This document shows, one piece after another, positions 54,819-62,578 of a DNA stretch of 64,000 nucleotides. The notes beneath the pieces are model-generated. The model did no database searches and was not told the origin of the DNA. It was given only the letters and a program-made list of their open reading frames with translations. Source of the DNA: Candidatus Bipolaricaulis sibiricus (GTDB lineage: Bacteria; Bipolaricaulota; Bipolaricaulia; Bipolaricaulales; Bipolaricaulaceae); NCBI GenBank assembly GCA_004102645.1, contig CP034928.1:62001-126000 (forward strand), in the 5' to 3' direction. A program made the position numbers and the translations under genes. The stretch's first letter is position 1. Every line of letters begins with the position of its first letter.

Positions 54819-56494
54819 ATGGCCCGACAGAGCTTGTTCATCACGACGCCGATCTACTCTGTGAACGACCGCGCTCACATAGGCCATATCTACACGACGA
54901 CGGTTGCCGACGCGGTGGCGCGGTTCCATCGGGTTCGGGGCAGAGATACGTTCTTCCTTACAGGCACGGACGAACACGCCTCCAAGGTGGTTGAAGCAGC
55001 TGCCGCGCACGGGCGCACGCCCCAGGAGTGGGCCGAGGAGAACGCGCGGTACTTCCAAGAGGCGTTCGCCCAGTTCGGGATCTCCAACAGCGACTTCATC
55101 CGCACCACCCAGGATCGACACAGACACCGGGTGAGTCGTTACGTCTCCGAGCTCCTTGAGAGCGGCGATGTGTACCCGGGCGAGTACGAGGGGTGGTACG
55201 ACGCGGGTCAAGAGGAGTACGTTCCCGAGACCCGGGCAAGGGAGGCCGACTACCGAAGCCCGGTCAGTGGCAGACCGCTTGTGCGCAAGCGCGAGAGGAA
55301 CTACTTCTTCCGCCTAGGCGCCTATGCCGACGATCTGCGCCGCTGGATCGACGAGAATCCTACGGCCGTCCAGCCCGACGCTCGACGGCAAGAGGTTCTG
55401 GGGCGGATCGACGAGGGCCTCAACGATGTTCCGATCAGTCGTAGTGGAGGCGAGGGCTGGGGCATCGCCGTGCCCGGCGATCCCAAACAGACGATCTACG
55501 TGTGGATCGACGCCTTGTTCAACTACCTCACGGCGGTTGACACGGACGAGCGGCGCCACTACTGGCCGTGCGACGTCCACCTCATCGGGAAGGACATCCT
55601 CTGGTTCCACGCTGTGATCTGGCCGGCGGTGCTGATGGCTCTGCGCAAGCGGCCGGTTACGACTGGGTCGCCCTTCCGCGCCGCGTGTACGCCCACAGCT
55701 TCTGGATCGCAGAGGGGATGAAGATGTCCAAGAGTGCGGGCAACTTCGTCGGCCTCGAGGAGCTGGAGAGCTACGTGGCTGCGTTTGGGCTGGACGCATT
55801 GCGGTTCTTCCTATGTACGCGCGGACCATTGGGTAGCACGGACAGTGACTTCGCCCGTGCGCGGTTCGTGGAGGTGTACAACGGTGACCTTGCTAACGCG
55901 TTCGGAAACTGCCTCAGCCGAGTGTGCAACATGGCGGGGCGGTACCTGGGAGGTCAGTTCTCCGGGCCGATCCCCGAGCGCGGGGAGTGCCGCGACGCCG
56001 CCGAGCGCTGCGTCTCGGGGGCGGTGGTGGCCTATGAGGACCTGAAGCTTGACGAAGCGGCCTCGGAAGCACTCGAGCTTGTGCGCTCCGTGGACTCGTT
56101 CATCCAGCGGACCGAGCCGTTCCGGCTGTCCAAGGACCCGTCGCGGTCCGCCGAGGTGAGCTCGATCCTGCACCAATCCGCCGAGGCGGTGCGGCTGGCC
56201 GCGCTTCTCCTCTGGCCGATGATGCCCGAGCGCATGGCCGAGGCGCTGCGCCGGCTGGGCTGCGTCGGCCAAGCACGCCTGCTCTCTGAGACCGACGGCG
56301 GGCGGCTGGACGAATGGCTCCGGTGGGGGGCCTGGAGCTCTCCACCCCGCTCCAGCGAGGCGATCCCCTGTTCCCGCGCTGCGAGGAATGAGGTAGCGCA
56401 CATCGCCGAGGCCCGGAACCGCCTGCTTCCGGCCCATGCCATCTACAAGAGCGGCGAACTGTTCAGAGTCCCTGCCGAGGAGGTAACTGGATAG
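54819..56494 (+). CDS. metG: Methionyl-tRNA synthetase, one frameshift near 55651
   Basis: Two abutting frames together make about 558 residues, the size of a short MetRS. The first (54819-55721) has RAHIGHIYTTTVADAVARFH with the HIGH motif, and the second contains AEGMKMSKSAGN (KMSKS) and an anticodon domain (VYNGDLANAFGNCLSRVCNM). The frame changes near 55645-55660: MALRKR is followed by GYDWVALPRRVYAHSFW in the other frame, which one extra base would restore. The zinc knuckle cysteines of some MetRS are absent. An essential gene with one shift hints at an error in the sequence. Confidence 0.85.
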
Positions 56495-56672
56495 GCAACA
56501 CCAGTATCCGATCCCTCAGCCGCCTGGCTTGTCCTCTCGCCCAGAGCGCAGGTAGAAGGGTACAATGCCTCCGCGCCGCTCGCTTGGCCCATCGGTACCT
56601 CCGCTTGGGTAACCTGAACTCTGAGGAACCGTTACCCTTTGGGTGAAAGCTTAGCTTAGGCAACTCGTCACC
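56495..56672. other. Start of lower-GC spacer
   Basis: About 180 bases after metG in which G+C falls towards the promoter of the radical SAM island; no gene seen. Confidence 0.4.
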
Positions 56673-56701
56673 TTGACGGATGTGAGCTAGACCACTATAA
56701 T
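56673..56701 (+). promoter_or_regulatory. Near-consensus sigma70 promoter of the radical SAM island
   Basis: TTGACG (56673-56678), exactly 17 nt, then a perfect TATAAT (56696-56701). It is the strongest promoter match in the window and unlike the -10-only signals elsewhere. It points at the short peptide frame at 56773, 71 nt downstream. Confidence 0.75.
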
Positions 56702-56772
56702 TACTTATACTTATAACTAAAAAGACTAGCCTGCGCCCAAGCTGCCATCAATGGGGAAGGGAGGTGGTCCAG

Positions 56773-56853
56773 ATGCGTGTCGTGAGAGAGCGCTCGCCTG
56801 AAGCTGTGATAATGTGCTGCAGGAGCCACAGTGCACCCAAAGACCCGATGTAG
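56773..56853 (+). CDS. Candidate 26-residue peptide gene, possible RiPP precursor
   Basis: ATG 56773 has a strong Shine-Dalgarno site (GGGAGGTGG, 6 nt spacing). The frame codes for 26 residues: a charged start MRVVRERSPE, then a Cys-Cys pair at positions 15-16 and a Ser/His/Lys-rich tail, and stops at TAG 56851. Its stop abuts the ATG of the next frame. Its place between a strong promoter and a radical SAM/SPASM enzyme makes it a possible modified-peptide precursor, but no known precursor family is recognised. Confidence 0.4.
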   Translation: MRVVRERSPEAVIMCCRSHSAPKDPM

Positions 56854-57150
56854 ATGATGCTCTGGCACCCCGTGCGTGGCGTGAAGCGAATAGCGGTTCT
56901 TGGGATCGGAGGTTGCTTGTTGATGGAGTACCGAATAGCGCGGCCCGTCTGCATAAGCAGCGGGCCGTCGCTTACGGCCGTGGTGGCACAAGGTTTGCCT
57001 CGGAAACGGGGCAGAATAGGTGCGTCGGCTGGTTGTACGCATGCCAGACGAATGTTGTCTCCTGGAGCATCTGTGTGTTACGAAGTTGCGTGCGATGATG
57101 GGGAATCTCTGTCAACCGCGAAGGGAGTGATCAGATGCGAGACCCATTAA
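56854..57150 (+). CDS. Candidate 98-residue Cys-containing protein
   Basis: The ATG directly follows the stop of the 26-residue frame, and the end overlaps the radical SAM start by 16 nt, an arrangement suited to translational coupling. It has six cysteines (21, 33, 61, 75, 80, 95), a hydrophobic stretch VKRIAVLGIGGCLLM and a Gly/Ser/Cys-rich second half. It has no Shine-Dalgarno site of its own. Either this or the shorter frame may be the substrate of the downstream enzyme; it may also be non-coding. Confidence 0.35.
   Translation: MMLWHPVRGVKRIAVLGIGGCLLMEYRIARPVCISSGPSLTAVVAQGLPRKRGRIGASAGCTHARRMLSPGASVCYEVACDDGESLSTAKGVIRCETH
56941..56967. other. Strong hairpin between promoter and radical SAM gene
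   Basis: CGGCCCG-T-CTGC, loop ATAA, GCAG-CGGGCCG: an 11-bp stem with one bulged T. It lies within the 98-residue frame, about 170 nt before the radical SAM start. No T-run follows. An attenuator, an mRNA-processing site or a relic of an inserted element are possible. Confidence 0.5.
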
Positions 57151-58466
57151 AGGGTGTAGAGCTCACACTCAGTCGCTACGTGCTGACCGCAGAGCTCCCG
57201 AATGGCGATCTCCGTGTGCTCAGCACGCTCTGGAGTTCAGTGGTAGATCTGGACCATCGCCATCAGCAACTTCTACGTGGCGAGACGTATGCCTCCACAT
57301 CAGAGGAGCAGGAACACCTAGACACCCTGAAGGGTCTAGGGATTCTGGTGGACAAGAGCGTTGACGAAGCAGCCGTGGCGGTTGAGGAACTCAAGCGACG
57401 GAAGCGGGCTGGAAGCGTAACTATGACGTACTGCGTGACATCGAGGTGCAACTTCAACTGTGTTTACTGCGTTCAGGAAGGCAAGTACGGCCCTGAGACT
57501 GAAATGCCACCAGAGATCAGGCGGAGAGCTGTGGACTTCAGTATTGAGATGTTAGAACACCAGGGAGGGGACTCATTAGATGTTCTCTTCTACGGTGGCG
57601 AACCTCTCCTTAACTACGATGGAATGCTTGATATGATGTTCCAGCTACACCGTCAATCCCGCACGGTAGGAGTCAAGGAACTTAGCTTCGGGGTAGTCAC
57701 CAACGGCAGCTTGTTGAGCCCTGCACGCCTCGAAGTGCTTCGATCGCTCGGCCTTGGGCACATGCAGATCACAGTAGATGGCTTGCCGGATACCCATAAC
57801 GCGCGACGCCGGACGAACAATGGTTCTTGGGGCAAAGTGTGGGAAACCATATTGACAGCTTCATCACAAGGCATTCACACCACTGTGAATGTTGTCGTAG
57901 ACTCTCAGAATGTAGGTGAACTGAGCGCTCTGCTCGACGTAGCCGACAGGATCACCTCTGCGAGACCCGATCTGAAGACACATCTCGTGTGGATCTTCGG
58001 AATGTTGATCCCGACTCGGCCAGCGTTTGCCCGATGCCATCAGGTGCTCTTTGGCAAAGAGCCGGAGATCTTCGCTAAGATCATGGACACGTACCTGATC
58101 GCTATGAAGCGCGGATGGCGGGTTCTGCACCCGCTCGTGCAGGCAGTCGACTCGCGGGAATCGCACCGCTCGTTTGCCATTGCCCCCAATGGTAAAGTCT
58201 ATAAGTGCTTTGGAGTAATCGGTCTTCACGAGTACGCGATCGGTGACATTGGCCAACCGGTTGGCGAGGTGGACACGGCCGGGCAGCTCTTCGCTGATCG
58301 AGATGCGTGGGATAGTGATTGCCTTACCTGCTCTATATTTCCGCTTTGCAGAGGAGGATGTCAGGCCATTGCGTCACTGGAACATGATGGGGAGTTCGGC
58401 CACAAGCTTTGCGAACGCGACTTCAGGATCGCAAACTTCCAGCGCGTGTTGCCCGGTCTTTTCTAG
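57135..58466 (+). CDS. Radical SAM/SPASM peptide-modifying enzyme (candidate maturase)
   Basis: 443 residues. Residues about 1-95 form an N-terminal domain that could bind a leader peptide. The radical SAM cluster motif C105-x3-C109-x2-C112 (CNFNCVYC) is followed by FYGGEPLLNYDGMLDM and VTNGSLLSPARLEVL, the SAM-binding strands. The C-terminal SPASM domain supplies KVYKCFG, CLTCSIFPLCRGGC and KLCERD for auxiliary 4Fe-4S clusters. Such enzymes install thioether or carbon-carbon links in peptides, or mature quinone-cofactor proteins. AAGGGAG precedes the ATG. Its codons are less G+C-rich than the window. Confidence 0.88.
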   Translation: MRDPLKGVELTLSRYVLTAELPNGDLRVLSTLWSSVVDLDHRHQQLLRGETYASTSEEQEHLDTLKGLGILVDKSVDEAAVAVEELKRRKRAGSVTMTYCVTSRCNFNCVYCVQEGKYGPETEMPPEIRRRAVDFSIEMLEHQGGDSLDVLFYGGEPLLNYDGMLDMMFQLHRQSRTVGVKELSFGVVTNGSLLSPARLEVLRSLGLGHMQITVDGLPDTHNARRRTNNGSWGKVWETILTASSQGIHTTVNVVVDSQNVGELSALLDVADRITSARPDLKTHLVWIFGMLIPTRPAFARCHQVLFGKEPEIFAKIMDTYLIAMKRGWRVLHPLVQAVDSRESHRSFAIAPNGKVYKCFGVIGLHEYAIGDIGQPVGEVDTAGQLFADRDAWDSDCLTCSIFPLCRGGCQAIASLEHDGEFGHKLCERDFRIANFQRVLPGLF

Positions 58467-58474
58467 GTCTCTCT

Positions 58475-59476
58475 ATGCAAGGCGGAGTAGAAGCTAGGAA
58501 CCTTACGCGCGGCTTCTCCACCTACCGCCGAAGGGAGGGGGTGCGAGGAGCATTGCGGGATTTGGTTCTTCGGCGTGAGGTGTTCAGGGTGACCGCGCTG
58601 GCAGACGTAAGTTTCACTGTGTCGCCGGGGGAATGCGTGGCGCTCCTTGGCCCCAATGGCGCGGGGAAGTCAACCCTGATGAAGATCCTGGCGGGAGTGC
58701 TCTGTCCAGAGCGGGGCACGGTCTTGGTGAACGGGGTGGACCCATGGACGCAGGGGATCCGCCATCGCCGTCTGATCGGGGTGCTGTTCGGCCATAGATC
58801 AGCCCTCTGGTGGAACATCCCAGTGCTTGAGAGCTTACGGTTTCTGGCGGACATCTACGGTGTCGGGCGGGAAGAGTTCGGTCGAACCCTGACAGAACTC
58901 CGCGAGGTCCTAGATCTCGATCCGCTACTGGCCTTGTCGGCCCGTGAGCTGTCGCTAGGTCAGAGGATGCGTTGCGAACTCGCGGCCGTTCTTGTCCACT
59001 CCCCGCCGCTTCTCCTCCTTGATGAGCCAACTATCGGCCTTGATCTCCTCACAAGGCTGAGCTTGCGGTCTTTCCTCCAGAAGCTGGCGAAGAAAGGCAA
59101 GACGACGATTGTGTTCTCTAGCCATGACCTTCTCGATGTCGAAGGGTTGGCAGCTCGCACCCTGGTGCTCGATGCAGGACACCTCATCTTCGACGGGACC
59201 ATCCCCGAACTCAAGAGCCGCTACACCGACTTCACAGCCCGCGTCACTGTGTTCCTGGACGAGGAGCCCACTGATTCCGTTCGGACTGTGCTCGCGCAAC
59301 TTGGGGAGCCGGAGGCCGACTCGGACGCTCCGTGTGTCCTGAGGTTCAAGGTTCGTGAGATCACGCCTTTTGTCCACCAGCTGATGCAGCAGTGCTCGCC
59401 GCGGGACATTCGCATTGAGCAGCCAACGATCGAGGAGGTCGTCCTTGCCCTCTACCGAGGACGCGGAGAGCGATGA
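58475..59476 (+). CDS. ABC exporter ATPase of the radical SAM island
   Basis: 333 residues. Walker A GPNGAGKST, signature LSLGQRMRCELA, Walker B LLLLDEPTIGLD and switch SSHDLLDVEGLA are intact; a C-terminal ACT-like tail follows (ARVTVFLDEEP). Its N-terminal extension before ECVALLGPNG is typical of the ATPases paired with ABC2_membrane_6 permeases. ATG 58475 starts 8 nt after the radical SAM stop. It overlaps the first permease by 4 nt. Confidence 0.9.
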   Translation: MQGGVEARNLTRGFSTYRRREGVRGALRDLVLRREVFRVTALADVSFTVSPGECVALLGPNGAGKSTLMKILAGVLCPERGTVLVNGVDPWTQGIRHRRLIGVLFGHRSALWWNIPVLESLRFLADIYGVGREEFGRTLTELREVLDLDPLLALSARELSLGQRMRCELAAVLVHSPPLLLLDEPTIGLDLLTRLSLRSFLQKLAKKGKTTIVFSSHDLLDVEGLAARTLVLDAGHLIFDGTIPELKSRYTDFTARVTVFLDEEPTDSVRTVLAQLGEPEADSDAPCVLRFKVREITPFVHQLMQQCSPRDIRIEQPTIEEVVLALYRGRGER

Positions 59477-60258
59477 GCGCGATCCGGCAAGCAAGAGCGC
59501 TGATGCGGGTGCAGTGGCGTGAGAACGTGACCTACCGAGTCGATTTCGTTATCGACCTTGTGGGATCCCTGATCGCCGTCGCCGTCTACTACTTCTTGTG
59601 GCGGGCGGTGTTCCTGGCACGACCGGGCACGGGGGGACTGGACCTCGCGTTCATGGTCTCGTATATCGTGCTTGTTCAGATTGTCGAGGCACTGACCGAC
59701 CCACCTGATATCGCGCGCGCCCTCGCTGCTGAGGTAACCCAGGGCTCAGTCGTCCTCCACCTTCTGCGCCCGTACAGCCTTCAGCTGCGTTTCCTGGCGC
59801 AGACTCTGGCCGCAGTAGGTTGGCGCATCGGTTGGGTGGTGGTGCCGTTGGTTTTCGTAGGCGTGGCCGCAAGCATCCGCCTTCCGACGCCCGGCCAGCT
59901 CGGCTGGTTCCTGCTCAGCCTACCGCTTGCACTCGCGGTGAACCTGTGCATTGCCACACTGGTCGGCCTCGGGGCGTTCTGGCTCCGGCAGAACGAAGGG
60001 CTGGTCCAGGTGAGGTTGTTCGCCCAGGAGTTCTTCTCGGGAGCCCTGGTCCCGCTTGTGTTGTTCCCCGGACCACTGGCCCAGCTGGCCGAGTGGCTGC
60101 CATTTCGCGCCGTTGTAGACGTTCCGCTTGGACTCTACCTCGGCTACCATCGGCCCGACGTGCTGCTCGGCCAGGCGGGTTGGGCGATCGGCCTCTGGAC
60201 GCTTACCGCGTTGGTCTTCAACAGAGCGCGGAGGAAGCTGGTGATCCTGGGAGGATGA
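59473..60258 (+). CDS. ABC-2 permease (ABC2_membrane_6 type), first subunit
   Basis: 261 residues with about six membrane helices. WRENVTYRVDFVIDLVGSLIAVAVYYFLW opens the family; TDPPDIARALAAEVTQGSVVLHLLRPYSLQLRFL is its coupling segment, and the short C-terminus ends LVFNRARRKLVILGG. Paired with the second permease downstream by an ATGA overlap. Together with the ATPase it would export the mature product of the island. Confidence 0.85.
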   Translation: MSAIRQARALMRVQWRENVTYRVDFVIDLVGSLIAVAVYYFLWRAVFLARPGTGGLDLAFMVSYIVLVQIVEALTDPPDIARALAAEVTQGSVVLHLLRPYSLQLRFLAQTLAAVGWRIGWVVVPLVFVGVAASIRLPTPGQLGWFLLSLPLALAVNLCIATLVGLGAFWLRQNEGLVQVRLFAQEFFSGALVPLVLFPGPLAQLAEWLPFRAVVDVPLGLYLGYHRPDVLLGQAGWAIGLWTLTALVFNRARRKLVILGG

Positions 60259-61076
60259 AAACGGACGGTTGGATCGCGCGGGTGCGCATGAACCTGGGTT
60301 TCGTATTGCTGTTCACCTTGCAGGCCACCAAGACACACATGGCCGATCGCGGCAACTTCTGGATCGGGTTCCTGACGCTCGCGTTGTACCAGAGCCTTGG
60401 GCTTGCCTTTCTCGCGGTGGTCTTCGCTCACGTGCCTCAGCTTGCCGGGTGGAGCTTCGCAGAGGTCCTGTTCATCTTCGGCGTGTTCCATGTCGTTTCG
60501 GGCCTCTTCTACATGCTGTTTGCCTGGACCCTTTGGTTCTCACGCCGGTATCTGATCGAGCGACGACTGGACGTGATCCTCGTGCGGCCTGTGCCACCTC
60601 TCCTGCAGATCGCTGCGGAAGGGATCGGCAACAGCCTGGCCGAGCTCAACGGGGTGGCGGTCGGGGTGGGCATCATCGCGTACGCAGCTGTCCAGCTTGC
60701 GTGGCGACCCAGCCCAGTCGACGTACTGTTGCTTTTCGTAGGGATCGTGTTGGGCGTGCTCATCCTGGGCGGGATATTCACTGCCCTCGCGATGATCTCG
60801 TTCTGGGCCCGGGCGACAAGCGGGGTGAGCAGGCCCCTCATGCAGATCATCGGGTTCGCCCAGTACCCGATCACCATCTTCCCGCCGCTTCTGAGGTGGG
60901 TGCTCACCTTCGTATTCCCGTTAGGCCTGGTGGCCTACGCTCCCAGTGCAAGCGTGCTGCGGGACACCTCCTGGGAGTGGCTTGTCATTGCACCATCCTG
61001 GGGCCTGGGGCTATGGGGTCTGGTCGGGATTCTGTGGCGCCGGGGAAGGCGCCGATACGAAAGCGCGGGCAGCTAG
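60255..61076 (+). CDS. ABC-2 permease (ABC2_membrane_6 type), second subunit
   Basis: 273 residues with six membrane helices. FWIGFLTLALYQSLGLAFLAVVF and the loop RRYLIERRLDVILVRPVPPLLQIAAEGIGN match the partner-permease pattern; the last cytoplasmic tail is basic (LWRRGRRRYE). ATGA overlap with the preceding gene. Its TAG stop lies within the left end of the inverted-repeat element at 61073, so the element inserted right at the gene end. Confidence 0.85.
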   Translation: MKTDGWIARVRMNLGFVLLFTLQATKTHMADRGNFWIGFLTLALYQSLGLAFLAVVFAHVPQLAGWSFAEVLFIFGVFHVVSGLFYMLFAWTLWFSRRYLIERRLDVILVRPVPPLLQIAAEGIGNSLAELNGVAVGVGIIAYAAVQLAWRPSPVDVLLLFVGIVLGVLILGGIFTALAMISFWARATSGVSRPLMQIIGFAQYPITIFPPLLRWVLTFVFPLGLVAYAPSASVLRDTSWEWLVIAPSWGLGLWGLVGILWRRGRRRYESAGS

Positions 61077-61242: not shown

Positions 61243-61478
61243 GGTCATGCCAGGGTGATGTGGCCGCTGAGGGGCGGGTGCAGTCCTACAGGGGGCCGAT
61301 CTTGTTCCGTGCGTCCACAGCTTTCCCGCTTTCAGTCGCGGCGTTCCCTGTAGGTCTGTCCCGTTAAGACTAGAGCTCGGGAGAGCAATGGCCCGGCGCT
61401 TCCTGTGCTGAGGTGCACCCGATGGCTGCGACACCCAGCACCTCCAGAACAGGCCTAGCGTGTCCAGTACCGCAATGC
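61243..61478. other. Repeat-rich junction between MITE and IS
   Basis: It contains TCTTGTTCCGTGCGTCC (61300-61316), 16/17 identical to the end of the RAYT gene (34498-34514), and a 9-bp inverted repeat CCTACAGGG (61285-61293) / CCCTGTAGG (61346-61354). These look like remnants of another IS200/RAYT-type unit. No intact gene. Confidence 0.5.
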
Positions 61479-62578
61479 TGTTGACACGTTAGGCCTCCTT
61501 GTCTGACGCGTGAGCCGCCGCTCCCCAGAACACCTCGGCCGGAGTGCGTCCCTGGGTCCGGTACCCGTGGTGCGGTCGCTCCTCGTGTAGAACCGCAGGA
61601 ACCCTGCAAGGGACAGCTGCAGTTGGTGAGCGCGGGTGAAGTACCTTCGTCGGAACGCCACCCGCCAGTGCTCGTGGAGGATTGTCCCCTGTAGTCGCTC
61701 CACGAACCCGTTCGTCCAGGCGTGCCGAGGCTTCGTCCGCGAGTGGGTGATCCTCAGGTCCCGGCAGGCTTGGTCGAACTCGCCCTTGAACTCGCTCCCC
61801 CGGTCTGTGAGCACACGGCGGAGCTTCCACCCCGCCTTGGCGAACTGGGGAACGAGCACCTCAGCCAGGAACCGTGCGGCCTCCACCGCGTTGCGGGCCG
61901 GGATCACCTTCGCCCAGGCGTAGGAGCTCGCCGCATCGCACGCCGTGATCTGCCACATCTGCCCCACGCCCTTGAGCTTGCCGATGAAGAACGTGTCCAG
62001 GCACACCAGCTCCCCGGGTTCGTCGACAGCTACGTGCCGGGTCCGCCGGAGGTTCCGTCGCGTGCGCTCGGTGAGGAGCCCCGCGGTCTTCGCTACATGC
62101 CCCTCCACGGCCAGGAGCCGCGCCTCACGACGTCCCAGCCCCATCCGCCGCAACGCCCGCCACACCGTGCTTGGGGAGACGTGGACCCCTTGTCGTGCAA
62201 GCTGCAAGGACACCCGGTTCGGTCCCCACGTCGGCCACGCCAGCGCCGTCGCTACGATCGCACGCTCCTCCACGGGCCCCAGCAGCGGTGGTCGTCCGGG
62301 ACGAGCGGACGTTCGTCGGGGATGAAGAGCATCCGCCCCGTACGCCCGGAGGCGCTTCTTCCACCGGTAGAACACCGTGCGCGAGATGTCGAGTTCTCGA
62401 CACGCCGCGCTCACGTTGCCCAGCTCCTCCGCTCGGCGGAGTGCATGGAGCCGAAAACCGTGTACCTTGTCTCGAGGGTCATCGGGCCACCTCCCAGGTT
62501 TCTTGTCGGATCCCTGGTGAGCTTGCCACGGTGACCCTCGCTCCTGCTACCCCCTCCGTGTACCTCCACCTGTCAACA
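61479..62578. mobile_element. IS481-like insertion sequence, probably inactive
   Basis: TGTTGACA (61479-61486) and TGTCAACA (62571-62578) are the conserved inner parts of the terminal inverted repeats, with weaker similarity further outward, around a single transposase frame. The transposase is frameshifted and lacks a usual start, so the element is likely immobile by itself. Confidence 0.7.
61489..62414 (-). pseudogene. IS481-family transposase, frameshifted near the 3' end
   Basis: An N-terminal helix-turn-helix (ACRELDISRTVFYRWKKRL) and an integrase core (LVCLDTFFIGKL, VLTDRGSEFKGEFDQACRDL, TKPRHAWTNGFVERLQGTI) with the DDE residues. Coding similarity extends upstream to about 62500 (KPGRWPDDPRDK, HALRRAEELGNV) without a usual start codon. 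Near 61584-61590 the frame shifts: LRFY is followed by EERPHHGYRTQGRTPAEVFWGA in another frame, ending at 61489; one missing base explains it. Confidence 0.8.

Follow-up and report, generated by a model that had tools for sequence, protein, structure and literature searches.

A 26-codon open reading frame of Candidatus Bipolaricaulis sibiricus, located upstream of a radical SAM/SPASM enzyme gene, is in our estimate (probability about 0.87) a genuine RiPP precursor gene, whose product would be modified by the adjacent enzyme and exported by an ABC transporter. The frame is conserved as coding sequence, co-occurs one-to-one with the enzyme and is part of a fixed gene order. The stretch of DNA analyzed, referred to as the window, comprises 64,000 nt (G000:C1:62001-126000) of a 1.70 Mb genome in a single contig (G000).

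The frame and its start signals

The region preceding and including the frame contains the following features:

56673..56701, plus strand: sigma-70-type promoter TTGACG-17-TATAAT, 11/12 consensus matches, as a sequence match only
56759..56767, plus strand: Shine-Dalgarno sequence GGGAGGTGG, 5 nt before the ATG at 56773
56773..56853, plus strand: putative precursor peptide gene, product MRVVRERSPEAVIMCCRSHSAPKDPM, frame conserved upstream of orthologous enzymes
56815..56841, plus strand: conserved core CCRSHSAPK, identical in genome G025, with CCR-[SG]-[HR]-S-[AS]-P common to all three genomes that carry the enzyme

The initial annotation had described a 26-residue Cys-Cys frame with a strong ribosome-binding site downstream of a promoter, and each of these elements was found as described. 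The frame extends from the ATG at 56773 to a TAG ending at 56853 and places its two cysteines side by side as Cys15 and Cys16. Among the start codons of all 20–60 aa frames of the window, counted on both strands, a perfect GGAGGTG at a distance of 4–17 nt precedes just 5 of 1190, one of which belongs to the MRVVRERSPEAVIMCCRSHSAPKDPM frame. For the promoter, 0.2 sites with 11/12 matches are expected in shuffled sequence. A gene of 26 codons is of the type that annotation would normally miss; this one is real and conserved.

Occurrence of the frame together with the enzyme

Orthologs of the enzyme were sought with a two-sequence profile in 100 genomes of the phylum. They are present in only three of them, G000 itself, G025 (same taxonomic family, enzyme 53% identical to that of the window) and G054 (another taxonomic family, 42% identical). 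These score at least 490 bits, all other matches in the phylum less than 111 bits. The wider genome scan used exact peptide seeds, which the G025 enzyme itself would escape, so that closer relatives outside the phylum are possible; in plasmid records the best enzyme relatives are 22–27% identical.

Loss of the frame where the enzyme is kept had been named beforehand as the observation that would speak against it. The frame is present in all three genomes with the orthologous enzyme, each time as a Cys-Cys peptide of 26–32 aa with a perfect GGAGGTG directly upstream of the enzyme, as expected of a RiPP precursor, a small conserved ORF that adjoins its maturase and co-occurs with it. In G025 the frame MRVLRGKLDVIIMGCCRSHSAPKKGFEA follows AGAGGAGGTGATCAGG, and the distance from Met to Cys-Cys is identical to that in the window peptide; in G054 the frame MIIISVGNKGPDPLPEHPRCCRGRSSPSLDPY follows AAGGAGGTGAAATTA. 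The gene order peptide-enzyme-ATPase-permease-permease is common to all three genomes.

An independent pattern search found exact matches encoding CCRSHSAP in 2 of the 100 genomes (G000 and G025), in both cases upstream of the orthologous enzyme, and in none of the 97 genomes without that enzyme. A zero-mismatch DNA match in G050 was rejected, as it spells CCSTHCAP owing to the degenerate pattern and is not located beside the enzyme. Pattern matches that carry one mismatch or read degenerately, 16 in number, fall into other frames or coding DNA, none of them beside the enzyme.

Coding conservation of the peptide

We compared all forward frames of the upstream regions of two genomes in translation, using 120 dinucleotide shuffles as reference. 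Between G000 and G025 the best translated match is the MRVVRERSPEAVIMCCRSHSAPKDPM peptide with a score of 83, while the shuffles reach a mean of 31 (sd 3.5) and a maximum of 42. Conservation of the peptide is far above chance. Within the nine codons of CCRSHSAPK the two genomes differ by 7 synonymous and 0 replacement changes, as expected under purifying selection, which is the kind of conservation that had been proposed as a check of the frame. All seven changes are at third positions; were 7 differences scattered at random over the 27 positions, all would be at third positions with a probability of 4e-5, considering position alone. The synonymous proportion amounts to 0.99 and the replacement proportion to 0.30 when 23 codons are compared.

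The G054 peptide has the core CCRGRSSP. Compared with either relative, it once more matches best in the CC core, with a score of 35 against a shuffle mean of 28 and a maximum of 37 (about 2 sd above the shuffles). Taken alone these statistics are weak because only three genomes carry the cassette, and the weight of the G054 peptide rests on position, ribosome-binding site and gene order, not on the score. The start Met, Cys-Cys-Arg, one Ser and one Pro do not vary among the three peptides.

Other frames and the spacer

Two further frames lie between peptide and enzyme, one of 98 aa at 56854-57150 and one of 36 aa at 57020-57130, the latter also containing CC. Either of them, or a frame elsewhere, could in principle be the true precursor, with the 26-codon frame open by chance. 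We consider this highly improbable: both candidates were rejected as precursors for having neither a Shine-Dalgarno sequence nor a counterpart in the G025 or G054 loci, and conservation upstream of the enzyme is highest at CCRSHSAP inside the MRVVRERSPEAVIMCCRSHSAPKDPM frame. The observation that the 26-codon frame ends exactly where the next begins is accurate insofar as an ATG at 56854 abuts the stop codon. Since the 98 aa frame lacks both a Shine-Dalgarno sequence and a counterpart and the spacers of the relatives are shorter (116 and 75 nt in G025 and G054, 281 nt in the window), this abutment is probably a coincidence. The second small gene implied by it found no support, and the 98 aa frame is probably not a gene. 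The spacers of G000, G025 and G054 cannot be aligned, and no frame or sequence is kept among them.

The spacer of the window also contains a hairpin:

56937..56972, plus strand: GC-rich stem-loop in the interval between precursor and enzyme, 48 nt fold of -31.9 kcal/mol, possible attenuator or processing hairpin

Consecutive Cys codons are used by actinobacterial cysteine attenuators. Given this precedent, the two adjacent Cys codons and a spacer stem-loop in 3/3 loci (weak in G025), the frame could be read as a regulatory leader peptide, on which stalling at the Cys codons governs the hairpin and expression of the enzyme in response to cysteine or redox state. This appears improbable to us, as stalling would not call for the purifying selection seen on RSHSAPK behind the two cysteines, and the downstream enzyme belongs to a peptide-modifying family. 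Moreover, the window hairpin begins 84 nt past the stop codon of the peptide and has no T-run, and the three spacers cannot be aligned. No excess of RNA structure over shuffles was found for the whole 441 nt region. Searching 56000-58600 against Rfam gave no match even at E<=1, and hence no known riboswitch or T-box there. A hairpin is also present in the spacer of a locus in G041, described below.

Enzyme and putative exporter

Reading the frame as a precursor gene draws on the genes that follow it:

57135..58466, plus strand: radical SAM/SPASM maturase, 443 aa; Pfam Radical_SAM 1.5e-20; CNFNCVYC; SPASM C396xxC399x5C405x3C409...C426
58475..59476, plus strand: ABC transporter ATPase; ABC_tran 1.1e-27; identity 65% to the G025 and 48% to the G054 counterpart
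59473..60258, plus strand: ABC permease 1 (ABC2_membrane_6); order conserved in G025 and G054
60249..61076, plus strand: ABC permease 2 (ABC2_membrane_6; start approximate); order conserved in G025 and G054

No peptidase gene was recognized in the cassette. The enzyme carries the CxxxCxxC radical SAM motif as CNFNCVYC (C105-C112) and auxiliary SPASM cysteines at C358, C396, C399, C405, C409 and C426. The first Cys of the CX9-15GX4C motif is absent in all three orthologs and present in distant relatives; its absence also sets the enzyme apart from the ranthipeptide/SCIFF maturases (PapB, CteB). For this reason the chemistry of relatives cannot be carried over to the window enzyme. One of the auxiliary clusters of CteB has an open site (PMC8326336); by analogy, an auxiliary cluster of the window enzyme could have an open site as well, or C301, invariant among the three orthologs, could substitute for the missing ligand.

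The nearest NCBIfam families of the enzyme are all peptide maturases (geopeptide, CefB, PapB, SCIFF and nif11). Among solved proteins the best sequence match of a three-ortholog profile is CteB (5wgg), with an alignment that spans core and SPASM domain alike. An AlphaFold2 model built from seven sequences reached a pLDDT of 62 and most closely resembles the solved structures of TigE and CteB. TigE (8vpo) is the best full-length match, at 18% identity and on a model of modest confidence; its chemistry is not transferable. At the N-terminus strands and helices follow each other in an order reminiscent of a winged helix, and the alignment with TigE starts at residue 5 (pLDDT about 60 there). We regard this region as a candidate RRE-like recognition domain, on a model of low to moderate confidence.

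Relation to geopeptides and other known systems

The closest known counterpart is the geopeptide system (TIGR04229/TIGR04280), for which our literature search returned no paper. Like the window, it combines a related radical SAM/SPASM enzyme with a short precursor encoded immediately before it (about 33 aa, Cys-Cys close to the C-terminus). In Nitrospirota, Omnitrophota and one Clostridia bin, distant relatives of the window enzyme likewise have short CC frames upstream with strong ribosome-binding sites, for example MEREDIIILDDGVEMEELAGFPACCKPMPSATK; six such frames were observed, against an expectation of 0.34 derived from the opposite strand at these loci. The proposal that the SPASM enzyme downstream acts on a small precursor encoded by the 26-codon frame is supported by these peptides and by coding conservation in 3/3 genomes; the modification itself we infer.

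The cassette might then be filed as a divergent geopeptide system below threshold, a question of classification that is compatible with a precursor gene. Of the models, TIGR04280 fits the window enzyme best, and three of the relatives with upstream CC frames score above its cut-off (545–567 bits), each behind a CC peptide of 33 aa; genuine geopeptide maturases of this kind occur in Nitrospirota. We nevertheless consider this assignment unlikely. Scores for TIGR04280 are 142.8 (G000), 114 (G025) and 139 bits (G054) against a cut-off of 400, and it is not the best model for the latter two. Identity between the enzymes is 25–28%, and the core after CC differs. The precursor model TIGR04229 (cut-off 30 bits) found nothing in the window peptide at E<=10 but matched the Nitrospirota peptides weakly; across the phylum it produced chance-level matches only, with 0 in G000, G025 and G054. 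A tree computed for 27 enzymes unites the three of the window type in a clade of their own (SH-aLRT 100), set off by a long branch of 1.7 changes per column. Clustering of the CC label is seen on this tree (4 changes, as few in 1/500 shuffles), which does not imply one origin. The neighboring transport genes differ too, with an ABC-2 exporter in the window cassette and a TonB-type receptor gene beside geopeptide-type loci. Going by sequence comparison, we regard the window system as a cousin of the geopeptide system, not a member.

At the geopeptide-type loci L032, L033 and L037 the TonB-dependent receptor genes are located upstream of the CC peptides. These adjoining genes hint that geopeptide-type products may be imported or metal-binding.

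Other families are more remote. CefB (NF038107, Cys-every-fifth) is the second-best model for the enzyme with 127 bits against a cut-off of 600, and the window precursor has no repeated cysteines. PapB (NF047865) gave 112.6 bits against 340 and the SCIFF maturase 89 bits against 425. Ranthipeptide/SCIFF maturases likewise combine radical SAM with SPASM, but the SCIFF precursor has six Cys in 45 residues, that of the window two in 26. The precursor frames matched no family in Pfam or NCBIfam.

Flanking genes and possible regulation

In G025 (L092) and G054 (L112) a gene for a CRP/FNR-type regulator with CxxCx5C near the N-terminus precedes the peptide gene. Between regulator and peptide lies a palindrome, TCTATGA-N6-TCATAGA in G025 and TGAAGTAGTTCACA-N7-TGTGAACTACTTCA in G054. 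Regulators of this type together with the palindromes suggest that the cassette may be under redox or anaerobic control in these two genomes. The closest G000 homolog of the G025 regulator (41%) is located elsewhere in the genome. The upstream neighbor in the window is, judging by eye from the sequence, what we take to be a methionyl-tRNA synthetase gene.

Just upstream of the promoter lies an insertion-sequence scar (56568-56637), a stretch that reproduces at 86% the 5’ end of what looks like the transposase gene of an insertion sequence at G000:C1:130722-130791 (minus strand). An rve-type transposase gene is found at 61455-62414 of the window (minus strand), and a similar fragment was identified by eye in G025 (L092, 3860-4321). 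Both flank the cassette, which may therefore have moved between sites.

Several loci of the phylum resemble the cassette in part. In G049 (L115, 2674-4732) a similar regulator and the palindrome TGAAGTAGTTCAAAGATTGAACTAGTTCA are located next to a radical SAM gene that is broken into two frames, probably a decayed relative. In G041 (L113, 6097, minus strand; NFCGVFCNP) and G008 (L114, 2933, plus strand; ACSVYCSGFC) radical SAM and ABC genes are preceded by other small Cys peptides, each behind a perfect ribosome-binding site.

Proposed pathway and its meaning

In the pathway that we propose, the N-terminal recognition domain of the enzyme would bind a short leader made up of about 14 residues at the start of the peptide. 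The radical SAM/SPASM enzyme would modify the C-terminal CCRSHSAPK core by radical chemistry, and the mature peptide would leave the cell via the ABC exporter formed by the ATPase and two permeases. If the frame is such a precursor gene, a thioether linking a cysteine sulfur to a nearby residue would be the single most likely modification by analogy to the relatives CteB and PapB, at somewhat less than even odds. A further, rather doubtful possibility is that the cassette represents an undescribed minimal RiPP class, defined by a precursor of 26–32 residues, a vicinal Cys-Cys core and a SPASM enzyme without the usual first cysteine ligand of its auxiliary cluster; the pair may form a new linkage, or may yield a metal- or redox-active peptide whose export is subject to FNR-type control.

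The cassette of precursor, enzyme and exporter is missing from the curated family libraries searched, and it offers a defined pair of substrate and enzyme open to direct testing. A gene of only 26 codons proved verifiable from cross-genome coding conservation alone. Short Cys-Cys precursors may be a theme common to geopeptide-type SPASM enzymes across several phyla.
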